A stretch of 64,000 nt of DNA from Acidobacteriota bacterium (GTDB lineage Bacteria; Acidobacteriota; Terriglobia; Acidiferrales; UBA7541): NCBI GenBank assembly GCA_003165465.1, contig PLUM01000053.1:1-64000 (forward strand), given 5' to 3'. The first letter of the stretch is position 1. Each line of letters opens with the position of its first letter. The notes under the pieces are model-generated. The model had not been told where the DNA came from. It saw nothing but the letters and a program-made list of their open reading frames with translations, and ran no database searches. Shown one piece after another: positions 255 to 63,688 of this stretch. A program made the translations under genes and the position numbers.

Positions 255-1277
255 ATGATGCACGCGCTAATCAAAAAGGTAGATGCTGGTACGGACCTCT
301 CGCGCGAGGAAGCCGAAGCCGCGATGGAGGAGATTCTCTCCGGCCACTCGGACGAGGAAACGATCGTCGCGCTGCTCGCGGCGCTGCGCGCAAAAGGCGA
401 AACGGTCGCGGAGTTGGTGGGCTTCGCGCGCGCGATGCGCCGCCATGTGACGCCAATTTTCAAGGACGGATTGCGCCCCGATGAACTGCTGGTGGATACG
501 TGCGGCACGGGCGGCGACTCCTCGGGGACATTCAACATCTCGACAGCGGCGGCGTTTGTCGCGACCGGCGCGGGCGCACGCATCGCCAAGCACGGCAACC
601 GCTCAATCTCGTCAAAGTGCGGCTCGGCCGATGTTCTCGAAGCGCTGGGAGTTTCGCTCGACGTTGCGCCCGAACGGGTCGGCGCGGCCATTCGCGAGAT
701 CGGAATCGGATTTCTCTTCGCGCCCGCGTTGCACACGGCCATGCGCCACGCCATGCCGGCGCGGCGCCGCCTGGGGCGCACGGCGTTCAACCTGCTCGGC
801 CCTCTGACCAATCCCGCGGGGGCGCGCGCGCAGGTGGTCGGCGTTTTTTCGGAAAAACTGGTGGAAGACCTTTCGCTCGCGCTCAGCGAACTGGGCGTCG
901 AGCGGGCGTTCGTCGTGCACGGCGCGGGCGGGCTGGATGAAATTTCACTGTCGGGCGAAACCACGATCGGCGACGTGCGCCGCGATGTGGTGCGAATCTA
1001 CCGTGTGACGCCCGAGGATTTCGGCCTCGATCGCGCGCCGCTGGAGGCGATCTCCGGCGGAGACGCGGCGCACAATGGCGGCATCATCCGCGCGATTTTT
1101 TCCGGCGAGGCCGGCCCGCGCCGAGACATCGTCATCGCCAACGCCTCCGCCGCGATCGTCGCATCGGGACGCGCCATCGATTTCCTCGAAGGCGCGCAAC
1201 TTGCCGCCCAGTCCATCGATTCGGGCGAAGCGCGCGGAAAACTCGATGCACTTGTTTCATTCATGCGCAGTGCCTAA
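255..1277 (+). CDS. trpD: Anthranilate phosphoribosyltransferase
   Basis: About 340 aa, the usual length. The enzyme joins anthranilate to PRPP, the second step of tryptophan synthesis. Family motifs visible are the glycine-rich PRPP loop GTGGD near residues 84-88, the KHGNR motif near 113 with SSKCGSAD after it, and the GPLTNPA segment. ATG codons occur at 204, 255 and 258. Start 255 (or 258) is preferred because a GAGGG ribosome site lies about 11 bp upstream and the family begins just before the ALIKK helix; the extra residues from 204 are not family-like. It stands alone here; trpE, trpC, trpB and trpA are not in the window. The only possible partner, the amidotransferase at 2118-2678, faces the other way. 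Confidence 0.95.
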   Translation: MMHALIKKVDAGTDLSREEAEAAMEEILSGHSDEETIVALLAALRAKGETVAELVGFARAMRRHVTPIFKDGLRPDELLVDTCGTGGDSSGTFNISTAAAFVATGAGARIAKHGNRSISSKCGSADVLEALGVSLDVAPERVGAAIREIGIGFLFAPALHTAMRHAMPARRRLGRTAFNLLGPLTNPAGARAQVVGVFSEKLVEDLSLALSELGVERAFVVHGAGGLDEISLSGETTIGDVRRDVVRIYRVTPEDFGLDRAPLEAISGGDAAHNGGIIRAIFSGEAGPRRDIVIANASAAIVASGRAIDFLEGAQLAAQSIDSGEARGKLDALVSFMRSA

Positions 1278-1373
1278 TGTCATACTCACACTTCCGCAAT
1301 AATTTCTGTTCCAATGGAATGAGAGACGCATTTGTTCCGTTCGAGCGGGAATTCGGAAAATCGGAGAAAGAAC

Positions 1374-2093
1374 ATGAAGAAAATCGGAATCGTCCTGGTT
1401 GTGGGACTCGTTTTCTTTTGCACGCCATTCCGTGCGGAGGAAATTCAGCTCAAGGACGGCAATAAAATCACGGGCAAAGTTATCGCCGTCACGGACGACT
1501 CGTTCCAAATCAAGACGGCATACGGAAACATTCAGGTTCCGCGCTCCGATATCGTATCGATCAGTTTTCCCGAAAATCAGCCAAAATCGAAAACAGGCGA
1601 CGACTCCGCGCCCGGCGCACCGGTTGTGGAATCGCTGATCGGAACCACCTACACGAACGACACGGCACACTTCCAATTGACCGTGCCTGCCGGTTGGATG
1701 ACGTCGGAGGCCCTGCGGAGCCAGGGCAAGGATATGGTCGCGGCCCTTACATCCCCGGACCAGACACTTTTCCTGCTGGTGACGCCGGAAAAATTCTCCG
1801 GAACATTCGCCACCTACCGCGTGCTTGCCGAAACGCAGTACCAGAGCAAGTTCAAGGATTATGAAAAGATCAGCGAGAACGATATTCGGCTGGATGGCAA
1901 AGCCGGGGTCCGCATCATCTGGCGCGGAAAAAATACAGCGGCCAACAACGCGCCGCTGAAATCGGCGGTCTATTTCGTGCCGTACGAGGGCCGCATGATT
2001 CGGCTGAGTTTCCTCACGCTCGAACCGCTGTTTGCGGAAGGGCTTCCCACTTTTGAAAAAATCGCCCTGTCCTACCGCTCCACCGCGCCATAG
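1374..2093 (+). CDS. Exported protein of unknown function with an SH3/LSm-like N-terminal region
   Basis: A protein of 239 aa. A GGAGAAAG ribosome site precedes the ATG at 1374. Residues 1-20 form a signal peptide (MKKIG start, hydrophobic core, cleavage near FRAEE). The mature N-terminus has the pattern IQLKDGNKITGKV followed by a short beta-rich stretch (to about residue 70), as in small beta-barrel 'LKDG...G.V' domains common in acidobacterial and planctomycete exported proteins. After a linker, the segment from about residue 95 (FQLTVPAGW) to the C-terminus resembles the PsbP/DUF1795-like fold. No catalytic motif is seen. It is 96 bp downstream of trpD and convergent with the amidotransferase gene. 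The function is unknown. Confidence 0.75.
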   Translation: MKKIGIVLVVGLVFFCTPFRAEEIQLKDGNKITGKVIAVTDDSFQIKTAYGNIQVPRSDIVSISFPENQPKSKTGDDSAPGAPVVESLIGTTYTNDTAHFQLTVPAGWMTSEALRSQGKDMVAALTSPDQTLFLLVTPEKFSGTFATYRVLAETQYQSKFKDYEKISENDIRLDGKAGVRIIWRGKNTAANNAPLKSAVYFVPYEGRMIRLSFLTLEPLFAEGLPTFEKIALSYRSTAP

Positions 2094-2117
2094 AACGGCG
2101 TATGCGCCAAGGAATTA

Positions 2118-2678
<561 letters not shown>

Positions 2679-2771
2679 CGTTTGTCGCTCATGTGCGGTT
2701 TCCCCGTGCCGGTCGCATCATCGCTGGAACCCGAACTCAAATTATATCCGAAATTTGGCGTGGGATTTACT

Positions 2772-2846
2772 GTAGCTCGCCTCTTCAGAGGCGAGGGTTT
2801 GCTGCCGGACGCTCGGAAAACTCTCGCCTCTGAAGAGGCGGGCTAC
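2772..2846. repeat. Family A palindromic element (two-armed)
   Basis: Inverted arms GTAGCTCGCCTCTTCAGAGG and CCTCTGAAGAGGCGGGCTAC enclose a loop of about 30 bp. Each arm is itself a small hairpin centred on TCTTCAGA. The same design recurs at 10828 and 28862, with single arms at 5956 and 63509. It lies between trpG (start 2678) and the exported-protein gene whose stop is at 2863. Confidence 0.9.
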
Positions 2847-2862
2847 AAAATAACAAGACCGA

Positions 2863-3429
2863 TCAGCGCGCATCCGCACGGATCGTATCCGGGTCGGGAT
2901 CTTCGTCGTTCTGCGCGCACTTCCGGCGGGTATCGGAGATATAGTCGTCGAGCTTGCCCTGGTCGCGCATGAGCACGATCTTGTCCAAGTAAGGCCAGCG
3001 CGCGTCCGGCTCGCGTTTGAGAATCGACTGATACGCCTTCAATGCGCCCAGCAAACCCGCGGTCGCCACGGCCTGTTCGTCCTTGGATTTATCCGCGTGC
3101 TCGATCATGAACGCGGCGCTGGAAACGATCATCTGATTCGAGATTTCCTGGGAATGCCCGCGATTCGAGCCGGGCAACTTGCCGAAATATTCGTCGCACA
3201 CGTTCACCGTGATATCCGGAATATCCACGATCCATTGAATCACCCAATCGCGATCGTCCTTGGCGTTCTTGCCTAGCGGGTCGTCCTCGAGTTCGTGCGC
3301 CACTTTCACGGCGCGGGCCCGCTCCGCGGGCGTTGACGGCCCGCGATGCTGCGCGCGCGCCGGCCACACAACACAAAATCCCAACAAGAATGCCGCAATG
3401 ACGATGGCTCGAATGGAGTGCGCCTTCAT
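2863..3429 (-). CDS. Exported protein of unknown function
   Basis: A protein of 188 aa read from ATG at 3429. Residues 1-26 form a signal peptide (MKAHSIRA, hydrophobic stretch, cleavage near ARAQ). The mature part is mainly helical and charged, with a central segment around NMIVSSAAFMIEHADKSKDEQA and a C-terminus rich in Asp and Arg. Two cysteines occur (in NVCDEYF and RRKCAQ). I do not recognise the family. It lies between two palindromic elements and shares its strand with trpG; no functional link can be read from context. Confidence 0.65.
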   Translation of the reverse strand: MKAHSIRAIVIAAFLLGFCVVWPARAQHRGPSTPAERARAVKVAHELEDDPLGKNAKDDRDWVIQWIVDIPDITVNVCDEYFGKLPGSNRGHSQEISNQMIVSSAAFMIEHADKSKDEQAVATAGLLGALKAYQSILKREPDARWPYLDKIVLMRDQGKLDDYISDTRRKCAQNDEDPDPDTIRADAR

Positions 3430-3511
3430 GTTTGTCCTCGCTGGCGATGGCCGCGCAATTCGCGCCAGCCCCCTGAAATCCAGCCGCACATAATAGTACA
3501 CGAAATCAGCA

Positions 3512-3583
3512 GTAGCGCAGGCATCAGCCTGCGGGGTCTCATTCTTGCAAGGACTAAACCCCGCAGGCTGATGCCCGCGCTAC
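3512..3583. repeat. Family B palindromic element (two-armed)
   Basis: Arms GTAGCGCAGGCATCAGCCTG and CAGGCTGATGCCCGCGCTAC surround a 30-bp loop. The inner part CCTGCGGGGTC/AACCCCGCAGG also pairs, so the element can form one long stem or two hairpins. It begins 82 bp upstream of the 3429 start and ends 12 bp beyond the stop of the gene at 3596-5215. Confidence 0.9.
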
Positions 3584-3595
3584 TGTGCATTTGTT

Positions 3596-5215
3596 TTATG
3601 CGGGAACCGGGGCGCTCTCCACGCGCGACATGCGATGGAAGCCCAGCAACACCGCGCCTGTCCCCCAGAGCAGAACCACCAGCCACACGAATCCTCCGAG
3701 CACGGGAATAACGCCCGCGACGTGAAGGATCAGCAGACCCAGCGCCAGTCGGCCAATCATCATGCTTGTGATGCTTGCGACGGGAGCCGCTTCGCCCAGA
3801 ATTTTATTTCCGAGCCATGCTCCGACAAACACTTGCGCGACATACAGAATCGGCGCGTAGAGCAGCACGCCCGCCAACAGCGCACCCACCCCGACAAACA
3901 ACATGAGCAATCCGAAAACCAGAAGAAACACACCCGCGATCAGCGCCAGCGCCCCAACTCCGATAGGCAGGCCAATGCCGGCAGCCTCGCGCAGCGCCGC
4001 CCGGAAAAAGCCGGGGAAGACGACGAGCAGCAGGATTCCCACCGCCAATGCCACTCCGTAACGGAATATGGCGCGGATCACGCCGCGTGTCTCCGTACGA
4101 CTGGCCCGCCGAACCTCCTGCGTAATTTTCGTTTGAATGGGGCTTGCCAGCTTCGCGCCCGACTCCACAACGGGCTGTTGCGATCCCTCGAACGCGGTCG
4201 TCCCGCGAATTTCCGCGGTGGACGCCACCGTCAGGCTTCCTCCGCGTATCCAAGCCTTCCCGCCGATCAGGCCATCTAGGCCGGTCCTGCCAATGATCCC
4301 GAGTAAATCGCGTTGCATCTTGCCGTCCAGATCGGCTTCGGCCGCGAGCACAATCATTCCGCCGCCCACGTTTGCCTGGGAGAGCAGATTGACCGAGTTC
4401 GCCAATGCCGTCGCGTTCTTGCCGACGGTCCCCTGCAGGATCGCGTTACGCGACGCGAGGCGCACATTTCCGTCCACGATTCCACCAATGACCGCGTCAC
4501 CGGCAATCGCGATCACGTCGCCCGTAACGTGCCCCGTCACCGTGAGGCTTTTCGTGAACGCGATCACGTCGCCTTCCACCGTGCCGTCGATCCGCACCGA
4601 AGAACCCGTGGCGATCAAGTCGTTATGAACCGTCTCGCTCGCGGGAACAAGAATGGATCGCCCGCGCCGCACCTCTGCCGCCGACGCCTGTCGAGGCTGC
4701 GCCAATGTGAATAGCATCGCCAATAGCACCGCGACAATCGCCACGGAACGGTTCAGTCGCCGCCGAATCCACACGAACGCCACAATCGCTCCCAAAAGTA
4801 ACGCCCCAATTTGCATCGCTTCCATCATGTCGCTCCATCCTTCCCAGAAAGCTCCGCTGAACACGATCATGCTAAATACCTCGGTTCCGCTGAAGCCCGC
4901 ATTGTTCAATTGATCGAACCACGGTCCGGCCTCGCCGGTCCAAAACCAGTACACGCCCGCCGCAAACACTCCGAATGCCAGCGTCCAGACCCAGGACGGC
5001 AAACCGCGGCCCTGCTCGCTGGCGAGGCGAGCGGGCATGGATTCGTTGTCCTCGGTCAAGGCGCTCGAAAGCAATGCCGTTTCGCGCTGGAGCGCGTGAA
5101 GCAGATCGCGGCAGGATGCGCAGTCTGCCATATGCGCGCCGAGTTCCCGCGCGCGCGCCGGATCGAGTTGCCCTTCGATGTAGAGCAGGCACGCCATTTC
5201 GTCAAAATGATTCAC
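3596..5215 (-). CDS. Membrane anti-sigma-like protein with bactofilin-like beta-solenoid
   Basis: A protein of 539 aa with GTG start at 5215, preceded by GGGAGG. Residues 1-40 carry a zinc-binding anti-sigma signature H28-x3-C32-x2-C35 (ZAS-like). Hydrophobic spans lie near 73-92, 134-150 and 158-172. Residues about 185-345 are a regular series of short beta repeats (GTVEGDVIAF, GHVTGDVIAIAGD, GIVDGNVRLASRN), the pattern of bactofilin/polymer-forming solenoids. From 385 to 525 there are about four further membrane spans. The GTG overlaps the sigma-factor stop by 4 bp (GTGA), so translation is coupled. Inference: it sequesters the ECF sigma factor at the membrane and may sense envelope state through the solenoid. 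No experimentally known protein with this exact layout is known to me. Confidence 0.85.
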   Translation of the reverse strand: MNHFDEMACLLYIEGQLDPARARELGAHMADCASCRDLLHALQRETALLSSALTEDNESMPARLASEQGRGLPSWVWTLAFGVFAAGVYWFWTGEAGPWFDQLNNAGFSGTEVFSMIVFSGAFWEGWSDMMEAMQIGALLLGAIVAFVWIRRRLNRSVAIVAVLLAMLFTLAQPRQASAAEVRRGRSILVPASETVHNDLIATGSSVRIDGTVEGDVIAFTKSLTVTGHVTGDVIAIAGDAVIGGIVDGNVRLASRNAILQGTVGKNATALANSVNLLSQANVGGGMIVLAAEADLDGKMQRDLLGIIGRTGLDGLIGGKAWIRGGSLTVASTAEIRGTTAFEGSQQPVVESGAKLASPIQTKITQEVRRASRTETRGVIRAIFRYGVALAVGILLLVVFPGFFRAALREAAGIGLPIGVGALALIAGVFLLVFGLLMLFVGVGALLAGVLLYAPILYVAQVFVGAWLGNKILGEAAPVASITSMMIGRLALGLLILHVAGVIPVLGGFVWLVVLLWGTGAVLLGFHRMSRVESAPVPA

Positions 5216-5829
5216 GTCGCGCCTCCCGCGGGAATGCTCGCGCCGCCCCGCCCTTCGAGAATTTCGCGCAACTGGTGGCGTGCGCGCAGCAGCACGACGC
5301 CCACGAACGTCCGGCGCACGCCCAGCGTTGCGGCAACATCGTCATAGCTCATGTCCGAGTAATAGCGCAGCACCAGCGCCATGCGCGAACGCGCAGGCAG
5401 CTTGTCGAGCGCGCGCCGCACTTCCTCGTTCGTTCGGCTCTCAATAATTTTTTCGAGCTGGCCGGGATCGGGATGCTCGAGCGGAAGGTTTTCGACTTCG
5501 CCCGTCTCCAGATCCTGCCGCAGTTTTCTGCGGCGCAAGAGGTCCCAGCAATGATTCGCGGCCACCGTATACAGCCAGGCGCTGAACGGGCGGCTCGCGT
5601 CATATTGCGAAAGCTTTTGCCGGACTTTGATGAAAATATCCATGGTGGCGTCTTCGGCGTCCTCGCGTGTCGGCATCGCACGGCGGCAGAAACGGAAAAT
5701 CGCGGGCGCGTGCTCGCCATAGAGCGCGCCCCAGGCTTCGGCGTTGCCGGCCTTGGCCAGGGCAATCCGCTCTTGCTTGGCGGCCTGTTCCGCGGGGTTC
5801 ATCCCTTCGGGATGTCTCCTCGCATCCAT
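5212..5829 (-). CDS. ECF-type RNA polymerase sigma factor
   Basis: A protein of 205 aa. Region 2 is recognisable at about residues 45-110 (AEDATMDIFIKVRQKL, then FSAWLYTVAANHCWDLLRRRK), and region 4 at about 140-190 with the helix-turn-helix YYSDMSYDDVAATLGV followed by LRARHQLRE. No sigma region 3 or 1.1 is present, as in the ECF group. ATG at 5829 is used here; ATG at 5802 is an alternative that would drop nine residues. The gene overlaps its anti-sigma-like partner by 4 bp. The target promoter and signal are unknown. Confidence 0.93.
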   Translation of the reverse strand: MDARRHPEGMNPAEQAAKQERIALAKAGNAEAWGALYGEHAPAIFRFCRRAMPTREDAEDATMDIFIKVRQKLSQYDASRPFSAWLYTVAANHCWDLLRRRKLRQDLETGEVENLPLEHPDPGQLEKIIESRTNEEVRRALDKLPARSRMALVLRYYSDMSYDDVAATLGVRRTFVGVVLLRARHQLREILEGRGGASIPAGGAT

Positions 5830-6271
5830 CTTGTACTACGCGGCGATGGGGTGAAATATTTCACGGTGGAAACCCTTCCGGGCCGAATATACGTAGAACC
5901 CGGATGTAGCTGAGAGCACTGTATCAGACTCGAACGCGTTGCATCACCTGGCGAAAACCCCCGCCTCTGAAGAGGCGGGCTACAACAATTCGCCCGCAAA
6001 TGCCGTAACGCGGGTCTCTCGTCCTGAGCGATGCGAAGCATCAGACCCGGGGCCTTTTCTTCGGCGTTCCAGATTCCCCCGATGGATTCGCGATTGGGTT
6101 GTGCAACCGCTTCCGAAGTTGTGCGTGGAAACGTCCTTCAGGTGTACACTTTCAGGCCGGGAATCACCGGCGGGAACCTGAAGATTCTGCAAAAAATGAA
6201 TTGGGTCCGCGGAGTTCTTCGCTCATTCGCATCCGGCCAGGTCTGGATGCGGACTCGAAACGGGAGGAACC
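5830..6271. other. Intergenic region between divergent sigma-factor and LVIVD genes, with one family A arm
   Basis: This 442-bp gap separates two divergent genes and must hold both promoters. It contains a single family A arm at 5956-5983 (CCCCCGCCTCTGAAGAGG then CGGGCTAC), preceded at 5938-5950 by GTTGCATCACCTG, which recurs next to the other single arm near 63488. A GGGAGG ribosome site lies at 6262-6267. I see no credible coding region. Confidence 0.7.
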
Positions 6272-7723
6272 ATGTTGGGTAAAACTCGCGTGCGAAATGC
6301 AAGGGCTGTCATTTTTGTGCTGGGTCTTTTTCTGGCGGGATATGCGGCCTTGTCCGCGCTTGCTCAGAATAAGCCCGAAGGCAAGAACATGGAGCTTGTT
6401 GGCTACAGCGATTTACAGGGGCGGAGCGCCTACCAGCCGGTGATCCACAAGCAGGGCAATCGCTGGATTGCGTATATCGGCCACCACGGCGGCTCGGCTG
6501 TGAACCCGCTGACCGGACAGACCGAGGACAACGGCACGTCCATCGTGGACGTGACCGATCCGAAGCAGCCTAAATATCTCGCGCACATTCCCGGCGATCC
6601 GCGCATTCCCGGCCCGGGCGAATCGGGCGGAGCGCAGATGGCGCGCGTGTGCGACGGCAGCGAACTGCCCCGCGCCGACAAGAAAAAAGTGTATCTGCTG
6701 CGCGCGCGCGGCACCGCCTCGCATGAACTTTGGGACGTAACCGATCCCGCGAAGCCGAATCGCGTGACCGTCGTCGAAACCGGCATGCGCGATACGCACA
6801 AAAGCTGGTGGGAGTGCGACACGGGCATGGCGTTCCTCGTTTCCGGCGTGCCCGGCTGGCGCGCGAAACGCATGGGGCAGGTCTACGACCTCAGCGATCC
6901 GTCCGAGCCGCAATTCATTCGCAATTACGGACTGCCCGGACAGGAGCCCGGCTCGACCGGCCCGCAGCCGTCCGACATGCACGGCGTGATCTCCACGGGC
7001 GCGAAGGGCAACCGCATTTACGCGGGCTACGGGACCACCAGGAGCGGTGTGATCGAAATTCTGGATCGCGACAAACTCATCCACGGCCCCAAGGAACCGA
7101 CCGCCGCGAACTTCGAGTATCCGATGATCGCGCGGCTCGATTTGCCGCCGGACGTGGGCGCGCACACGACGTTTCCGCTAATTGGAGTGGACGTGCCCAA
7201 CCTTGCGAAATTTGGTCCGGCCGTCAGCAAGCGGAACTTCATCGTCATCGTGGGCGAGACCACGGATAACGAGTGCCATGCCCCGCAGCAGATGATGCAC
7301 ATCTTCGACATCACGGATGAAACGAAAATCTTCGGCGTCTCGACCTGGTACGTGCCCGAGCCGAGCGGCAACTTCTGTAGCCGCGGCGGACGCTTCGGCA
7401 CGCACTCGACAAATGAAAGCATGACGCCGGTCTATTACAATCGCATCATTTTTGTAGCGGATTTCAACGCCGGCGTGCGCGCCATCGACGTGCGCGATCC
7501 GTTCAACCCCACGGAAATCGGCTATTACATTCCTGCGATCACCGACAAGACCGACAAGCGCTGCGTCGGCACCGGCGCTGACGAGAAATGCAAAATCGCC
7601 ATCCAAACCAACAACGTGGAAGTGGACGACCGCGGCTACATCTACATCGTCGACCGCGCCAACACCGGAATGCACATCCTGCAACTGACGGGCGATGCGA
7701 AGAAGGTGGCGAATCTGCCGTAG
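6272..7723 (+). CDS. Exported LVIVD-repeat beta-propeller-like protein
   Basis: A protein of 483 aa with GGGAGG 5 bp before ATG 6272. Residues 1-32 form a signal peptide (cleavage near ALAQN). The mature protein has at least five copies of the LVIVD-type pattern, for example IVDVTDPKQPKYLAHI, LWDVTDPAKPNRV, VYDLSDPSEPQFI, IFDITDETKIF and AIDVRDPFNPTEI, spaced as blades of a beta-propeller. Six to eight cysteines (CDGS, CDTG, CHAPQ, FCSRGG, RCVG, KCKI) suggest disulfides outside the cytoplasm. LVIVD proteins are secreted or surface-located and mostly uncharacterised. The TAG stop sits in a small hairpin (7719-7743). Confidence 0.85.
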   Translation: MLGKTRVRNARAVIFVLGLFLAGYAALSALAQNKPEGKNMELVGYSDLQGRSAYQPVIHKQGNRWIAYIGHHGGSAVNPLTGQTEDNGTSIVDVTDPKQPKYLAHIPGDPRIPGPGESGGAQMARVCDGSELPRADKKKVYLLRARGTASHELWDVTDPAKPNRVTVVETGMRDTHKSWWECDTGMAFLVSGVPGWRAKRMGQVYDLSDPSEPQFIRNYGLPGQEPGSTGPQPSDMHGVISTGAKGNRIYAGYGTTRSGVIEILDRDKLIHGPKEPTAANFEYPMIARLDLPPDVGAHTTFPLIGVDVPNLAKFGPAVSKRNFIVIVGETTDNECHAPQQMMHIFDITDETKIFGVSTWYVPEPSGNFCSRGGRFGTHSTNESMTPVYYNRIIFVADFNAGVRAIDVRDPFNPTEIGYYIPAITDKTDKRCVGTGADEKCKIAIQTNNVEVDDRGYIYIVDRANTGMHILQLTGDAKKVANLP

Positions 7724-10801: not shown

Positions 10802-10827
10802 TACGCTGACAGTGTTGGAAAATTATT

Positions 10828-10901
10828 GTAGCCCGCCTCTTCAGAGGCGGGGGTTTTGCCCCAGTTGGAAGAAAATCCCCGCCTCTGAAGTGGCGGGCTA
10901 C
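10828..10901. repeat. Family A palindromic element (two-armed)
   Basis: GTAGCCCGCCTCTTCAGAGG on the left and CCTCTGAAGTGGCGGGCTAC on the right, with GGGGTTTT...AATCCCC inside. One mismatch (GTGG for GAGG) breaks the right-hand arm. It lies 27 bp after the MerR stop and 27 bp before tRNA-Pro. Confidence 0.92.
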
Positions 10902-10927
10902 AGTAAACGGTTTGCAACACAAACAGT

Positions 10928-14265: not shown

Positions 14266-14336
14266 GTAGCGCGGGCTTCAGCCTGCGGGGTTTCGTCGAT
14301 CCGAAACCTACCCCCGCACGCTGAAGCCCGCGCTAC
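14266..14336. repeat. Family B palindromic element (two-armed)
   Basis: GTAGCGCGGGCTTCAGCCTG and CGCTGAAGCCCGCGCTAC with GCGGGGTTTCG inside. It starts 1 bp after the debranching enzyme's TAA and lies in the convergent gap to the gene ending at 14382, a position suited to a bidirectional terminator. Confidence 0.92.
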
Positions 14337-28858: not shown

Positions 28859-28861
28859 TTT

Positions 28862-28936
28862 GTAGCCCGCCTCTTCAGAGGCGGGGTCCTTTTCTCGCTC
28901 GGGCAAAAAACCCCCGCCTCTGAAGAGGCGGGCTAC
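28862..28936. repeat. Family A palindromic element (two-armed)
   Basis: GTAGCCCGCCTCTTCAGAGG and CCTCTGAAGAGGCGGGCTAC, perfect in both arms, with CGGGGTCCTTTT and AAAAAACCCCCG inside. It lies 47 bp beyond the pgpA stop, between pgpA and the IPT/NHL gene. Confidence 0.95.
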
Positions 28937-28983
28937 AATCATTGCGATGAAGTCACAATGTATTCGGCCGCATCGGCAAAATT

Positions 28984-63487: not shown

Positions 63488-63534
63488 GTTGCATGACCTG
63501 AGGGAAAGGCCCCGCCTCTGAAGAGGCGGGCTAC
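63488..63534. repeat. Single family A arm with conserved flank
   Basis: The arm CCCCGCCTCTGAAGAGGC then GGGCTAC (63510-63534) is preceded at 63488-63500 by GTTGCATGACCTG, matching the flank of the single arm at 5938-5983. It lies in the 350-bp gap (63339-63688) between the quinone oxidoreductase start and the edge gene's stop. No gene is seen in that gap. Confidence 0.85.
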
Positions 63535-63688
63535 AGCAACCTACGACCGCGTCGCCGATACTGTTGCCGGGGTCTTCAGGCCCGAGGATTTTCCGCGGCG
63601 CTCGCGAATCTCCTGCCTGAAGAACCCATCACACTTCCGCAATGAATTACCGGAAATCCCGGGACAAAATACATGTTAGATTGACATG

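Follow-up and report, generated by a model that had tools for sequence, protein, structure and literature searches.

An ECF sigma factor paired with a zinc anti-sigma factor fused to a predicted extracytoplasmic bactofilin-fold module in Acidobacteriota

The window, a 64,000-nucleotide stretch of a contig from a soil acidobacterium, carries an ECF sigma factor gene that overlaps by 4 bp with the gene of a 539-aa protein in which a zinc anti-sigma domain, a bactofilin-fold solenoid and a membrane domain are fused. We favour, with fair confidence, the view that this protein is a class I zinc anti-sigma factor to which an extracytoplasmic envelope module has been joined, the module serving either as a gauge of the switch or as its output. 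This view builds on the computed pairing, architecture and fold, a single fused clade, split and LytTR-coupled forms of the module, and a promoter shared among the sigma genes.

The gene pair and its conservation

The coupling of an ECF sigma factor to an anti-sigma-like partner, as described by the sequence-only reading, is confirmed: both open reading frames occupy the positions given in Table 1, and their Pfam domains agree. That reading had also recognized in the partner an N-terminal zinc motif, three membrane spans and a bactofilin-like solenoid, which are upheld by the zf-HC2 match, hydropathy and the solenoid model, respectively. Its four further spans survive as a membrane domain following the solenoid, with probably five spans in place of four, to which the hydropathy of a split relative (L059) and low-confidence helices of the full-length model point.

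The N-terminal domain matches zf-HC2 at 24.7 bits (Pfam cut-off 22.2) and contains the H-x3-C-x2-C zinc motif of class I anti-sigma factors, a group that varies in membrane anchoring and zinc binding according to the available text of PMC7406223. By homology, it would be the class I anti-sigma domain of the adjoining sigma factor, with sigma binding presumed on the same ground. Spans 1 and 2 are joined by a conserved Trp/Gly loop in which W124, G126 and W127 are invariant across the 30 aligned rows.

Relatives of the window protein occur in 74/89 genomes of its family, including 45 of the 50 good ones, which excludes a chance open reading frame; in genus g7 of the same family (five genomes), a full-length relative was not found. 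Searching other acidobacteria for the pair, as had been suggested from the sequence, recovered it as a retained unit, with the sigma gene directly upstream on the same strand in 34/34 examined loci (~31 distinct). These comprise the best 30 matches of the 74 matching genomes together with four named contigs, of which three duplicate other loci. The same arrangement was found in 14/14 further fused loci at the class and order levels (L087–L096, L100, L101, L104 and L105), one with its sigma gene cut by the contig end. Alignment A1 consists of 30 rows, the near-copies L032 and L035–L037 having been left out; the 30-row profile matched 77/95 genomes of the order, 52 of the 200 class genomes sampled and 47 of the 396 phylum genomes sampled, each search with its own E-value limit.

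A conserved third gene was not found. The downstream 212-aa gene recurred in 0/52 loci, most of them with only ~1.5 kb of flank, and the divergent 483-aa gene was seen in three loci, all of the same genus. In genus g11 of the same family (L102, L103 and L106), a solenoid gene is followed by a single-domain receiver gene, with no adjoining sigma pair. Two palindromic families are also dispersed through the window: the REP/REPIN-like repeat CGCCTCTGAAGAGGCGGGCTACAAC, with eight copies and three inverted pairs ~56 bases apart, and GCAGGCATCAGCCTGCGGGG, with three inverted pairs ~42 bases apart, one of which lies just past the anti-sigma stop codon.

Table 1 Positions of the gene pair, of the parts of the fused protein and of nearby elements in the window
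Feature	Position	Strand	Basis or remark
ECF sigma factor gene	5212..5829	-	205 aa as called; Sigma70_r2 and Sigma70_r4_2 above cut-off
Fused anti-sigma/solenoid/membrane protein, 539 aa	3596..5215	-	GTG start
Zinc anti-sigma domain, residues 1-66, predicted cytoplasmic	5018..5215	-	zf-HC2 above cut-off
H28-x3-C32-x2-C35 motif	5111-5134	-	ligands invariant in 30/30 aligned rows
Spans 1 and 2 (residues ~74-92 and ~132-150)	4766..4996	-	hydropathy and charge; borders set by hand
Basic loop, residues 151-157, predicted cytoplasmic	4745..4765	-	Lys/Arg mean 4.2, minimum 3, per 7 residues (30 rows)
Span 3, residues 158-176, read as former signal peptide	4688..4744	-	corresponds in position to the signal peptide at the N-terminus of split relatives
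A-x-A site, residues 177-179; signal peptidase may cut after A179	4679..4687	-	conservation
Bactofilin-fold right-handed beta-helix, residues 181-366, predicted extracytoplasmic	4118..4675	-	model, Pfam in relatives, charge
C-terminal membrane domain, residues ~383-527, probably five spans	3635..4069	-	hydropathy, low-confidence model
Putative sigma-dependent operon promoter TGAAATATTTCACCCCATCGCCGCGTA	5837..5863	-	dyad shared upstream of sigma genes
CGCCTCTGAAGAGGCGGGCTACAAC repeat sites	2769-2849, 5962-5986, 10825-10904, 28859-28939, 63513-63537		
GCAGGCATCAGCCTGCGGGG pairs	3517-3578, 14271-14331, 33678-33739		

Fold and predicted location of the solenoid

Modelled alone, the solenoid forms a right-handed beta-helix of about ten coils with long strands 17 residues apart (mean pLDDT 96.7, pTM 0.90). 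The full-length model is confident in the solenoid only, with its membrane parts poorly resolved, and returned only noise in Foldseek. With the isolated solenoid, Foldseek matched the Thermus bactofilin filament subunit 6rib_A (probability 0.99, target TM 0.77, rmsd 2.5 Å) at an E of only 0.56 and rank 16, and the 193 residues modelled exceed the bactofilin core represented by this 101-residue target. VIA ranks other right-handed beta-helices first, with two-partner-secretion beta-helices on top (Z 17–18) and bactofilin absent from the 50 matches it lists.

At the sequence level, the Bactofilin match of the window protein (20.4 bits) falls below the Pfam cut-off of 27.9 and reaches 29.9 bits when the whole-genome search sums the frame; the cut-off is passed by 4/4 fused or split relatives scanned (29.4–37.5 bits). 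PDB sequence searches gave weak bactofilin matches only (E 0.0037 and 0.062), and the one protein found in a plasmid search, a polymer-forming protein of Peptoclostridium, has no sigma neighbor. Three separate, ordinary bactofilins were located elsewhere in the same genome by whole-genome search.

Topology was assigned segment by segment from charge and hydropathy, with span borders set by hand. The loop preceding span 3 holds 3–5 Lys/Arg per 7 residues in 30/30 rows; under the positive-inside rule, span 3 would therefore run outward and leave the solenoid outside. Split relatives begin with N-terminal signal peptides ahead of the solenoid. A typical bactofilin attaches to the inner face of the cytoplasmic membrane, as the accessible part of PMC12448750 describes. 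In place of that position on the inner face, the charge pattern and the signal-peptide relatives lead us to predict a solenoid outside the cytoplasm.

A signal peptide is composed of a basic loop, a hydrophobic stretch and an A-x-A motif. After span 3, Ala179 is present in 30/30 and Ala177 in 27/30 aligned rows, and A177-x-A179 is the best strict A/V-x-A position within residues 72–535 (28/30 rows; the next reaches 17). Among 16 distant fused relatives inspected by eye, the matching -1 residue is Ala in 13, Ser in one and Thr in one, with one unalignable. This conservation suggests a signal peptidase cut after span 3.

Split operons and exchange of regulators

In two other lineages, the parts of the fused protein are encoded by separate genes. 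Operons L059/L107 and L062/L108 run from a sigma gene through a short zinc anti-sigma gene, whose product has two or three hydrophobic peaks, to a gene for a signal-peptide/solenoid/membrane protein. When the class of G154 was searched for split relatives, one more locus was recovered, L167, which resembles these operons and represents a weak third lineage (solenoid match 22.7 bits, without a Pfam match); the order of G195 holds only G195 itself and added none. Many relatives beyond the order start exactly at the point corresponding to span 3 of the fused protein.

In the tree, a single branch sets 29/29 fused rows apart (support 99/95.9), and this single clade makes a single fusion likely; a group uniting fused and split forms lacks support (73/17.8). 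Owing to its long branch, L167 was excluded from the careful tree but kept in a quick one. On these sequence comparisons, the likeliest origin of the window protein is a single event that fused the second gene of a split operon to the third, with span 3 most likely being the old signal peptide of the third gene.

Outside the order, 29 loci were examined, drawn as best matches in the phylum sample from 46 matching non-own genomes. Five are sigma-coupled (three fused, two split), and in 20 the gene immediately upstream, in the same orientation, encodes a LytTR response regulator (in L081 only a short match shows it), preceded in 18/20 by a LytS-type histidine kinase gene. The other four show neither sigma nor LytTR upstream, L075 with just 231 bases visible. 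Overall, 25/29 solenoid genes follow a sigma/anti-sigma or LytTR regulator gene. Pfam scans identified receiver and LytTR domains in 2/2 regulators and, in the single kinase scanned, a histidine kinase domain. Ten of the LytTR-coupled genomes hold 22 LytTR domains in total; in 10/10, one of these adjoins the solenoid gene, and in five it is the sole LytTR domain.

Neither regulator lies upstream of the solenoid gene in L097–L099 and L162–L166. At L112 (G095, 767–6991), the solenoid gene is flanked by a SpoIIE-type phosphatase/histidine kinase/LytTR regulator group and by an ABC transporter pair.

Since a regulator gene precedes the solenoid gene in most loci outside the order, the module is likely tied to a switch, and its position beside a different switch in distant relatives makes it probably a sensor or a regulated envelope part. 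Judged by gene order, the solenoid module swaps regulators.

Promoter and proposed mechanism

The best dyad shared by the regions ahead of the sigma genes is TGAAA-N18-CGTA, present in 23/48 regions against a shuffled maximum of 4. A looser form (TGAAAT-N17-CGTA type) precedes 39/48 sigma genes (null mean 0.47, maximum 4), with 29/31 in the family set and 10/17 in the distant set, leaving 9/48 without it. We take this promoter to resemble the sigma-W type. In the window, 7 bases separate the end of the CGTA from the called sigma ATG (5802–5863); the true start may therefore be the recurring Met10 (base 5802), or the message may be nearly leaderless.

The strict pattern matched 21 sites in six genomes of the genus and none in the reversed control. 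Seven of the 21 are sigma promoters (all six genomes; twice in G086), and the others lie mostly inside genes or before genes unrepeated between genomes, with no second gene clearly and repeatedly behind the strict promoter in these six genomes. A wider pattern gave 28 matches in the window's own genome versus 5 in the control, mostly within open frames. The clearest other candidate there is the gene at L118, which follows a strict site and presumably belongs to the GlcG/HbpS family; in two relatives, strict matches precede what we assume to be secreted propeller-like genes (L121 and L128). These three matches could be extra targets or chance. A promoter shared by the sigma genes, with no other clear gene behind it in the genus, suggests autoregulation with a small regulon, although the pattern would miss weaker sites.

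In the favoured reading, an older extracytoplasmic module (the bactofilin-fold beta-helix with about five spans) would have been joined to a membrane-bound class I zinc anti-sigma factor, whose cytoplasmic N-terminal domain would hold the ECF sigma factor, with the solenoid on the far side of the inner membrane. The module would then be a sensor of envelope condition, or a protein whose amount or state the switch controls. Because the sigma factor apparently drives mainly its own operon, a feedback loop is favoured, in which the solenoid protein would be both main product and gauge, and a change in the solenoid or in its ligand would loosen the anti-sigma domain. The A-x-A after span 3 suggests a two-part cut, as in relatives with separate genes: signal peptidase would divide the chain into a zinc-domain/three-span part and a solenoid/five-span part that stay together.

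More tentatively, these elements may be joined at the level of the phylum, as a regulator-coupled envelope module of Acidobacteriota, formed by extracytoplasmic bactofilin-fold proteins with a five-span membrane domain, that different lineages place under LytTR, ECF sigma or perhaps lone receiver switches. In Terriglobia, the anti-sigma factor would be made fused to its own output and the chain recut by signal peptidase, and an inhibitor made together with an outer scaffold would let the cell read how much of that scaffold there is, or its state.

Somewhat unlikely, to our judgment, is that the solenoid-membrane part is only a regulated output, such as an envelope or transport protein, the fusion keeping one copy per anti-sigma domain while another signal releases the sigma factor. 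The module does follow two unrelated regulator types, one of them with a dedicated sensor kinase, and the sigma sites are found mainly at its own operon; yet fusion to an inhibitor, kept over several families and one branch of the phylum, would be odd for a pure output.

Polymerization of the solenoid outside the inner membrane, with sigma release reading the polymer state, would be an envelope form of the idea in the sequence-only reading and is unlikely: its fold matches that of a filament-forming bactofilin, but the helix has about double the length and is tethered by spans at both ends, and other, monomeric beta-helices fit equally well or better.

We hold it a little less probable still that the A-x-A is a regulated site-1 cut that responds to a signal and starts proteolytic release of the sigma factor. 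The site is conserved, and the available portions of PMC6066255 and PMC8844934 report that signal peptidase cuts RsiV and RsiP, respectively, as the first release step. The window anti-sigma shares with these two a signal-peptidase-like site. Unlike an RsiV-type site directly after the span that bears the anti-sigma domain, the window site follows the third span, which leaves the zinc domain on a three-span anchor, and the matching cut in split relatives is that of an ordinary signal peptide.

A redox-sensing zinc domain of the ChrR or RsrA type, with the remainder of the protein as a membrane anchor, appears very improbable. Its ligands are invariant and NCBIfam gives weak ChrR and RsrA family matches, but these are far below cut-off, the solenoid is conserved too, and the motif is carried by about half of membrane-bound class I anti-sigmas and is probably structural, according to the text available from PMC7406223. 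Hardly credible, and rejected on predicted topology, is the idea of the sequence-only reading as usually understood, in which a cytoplasmic solenoid joins a bactofilin cytoskeleton: the domain matches the bactofilin family, but the charge of the loop before span 3, the conserved A-x-A and the signal-peptide relatives place it outside, and the genome already has its separate bactofilins.

Compared with known systems, the window protein shares with RsiW, the partner of sigma-W, the H-x3-C-x2-C motif, a gene directly after that of an ECF sigma factor and a membrane anchor, to which a sigma-W-like promoter can presumably be added; unlike RsiW, it has some eight spans and includes a fused solenoid of bactofilin fold that brings a membrane domain of its own. 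With BacA and the Thermus bactofilin (6rib), it has in common the right-handed beta-helix and, in relatives, the Pfam family, whereas its solenoid is predicted to be extracytoplasmic, is about twice as long, has spans on both sides and is tied to regulators. In other acidobacteria, a signal-peptide/solenoid/membrane gene directly follows the regulator of a LytS/LytTR two-component system, in contrast to the ECF sigma and anti-sigma factors used by the window lineage. To our knowledge, there is little work on acidobacterial envelope stress systems.

A literature search of partial coverage found no title or abstract joining bactofilin with an anti-sigma factor or a LytTR system, in agreement with the sequence-only reading, to which no sigma regulation of this design was known. 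The split sigma/anti-sigma/solenoid operons, the LytTR-coupled solenoid genes and the shared sigma-gene promoter are additions of the present analysis. If the favoured reading is true, a protein of bactofilin fold acts beyond the cytoplasm as part of a transcription switch, and one envelope module would have come under unrelated regulator types in a rare natural swap. It would then become testable, in acidobacteria, what is sensed by the module and whether a bactofilin fold can serve as an envelope gauge.
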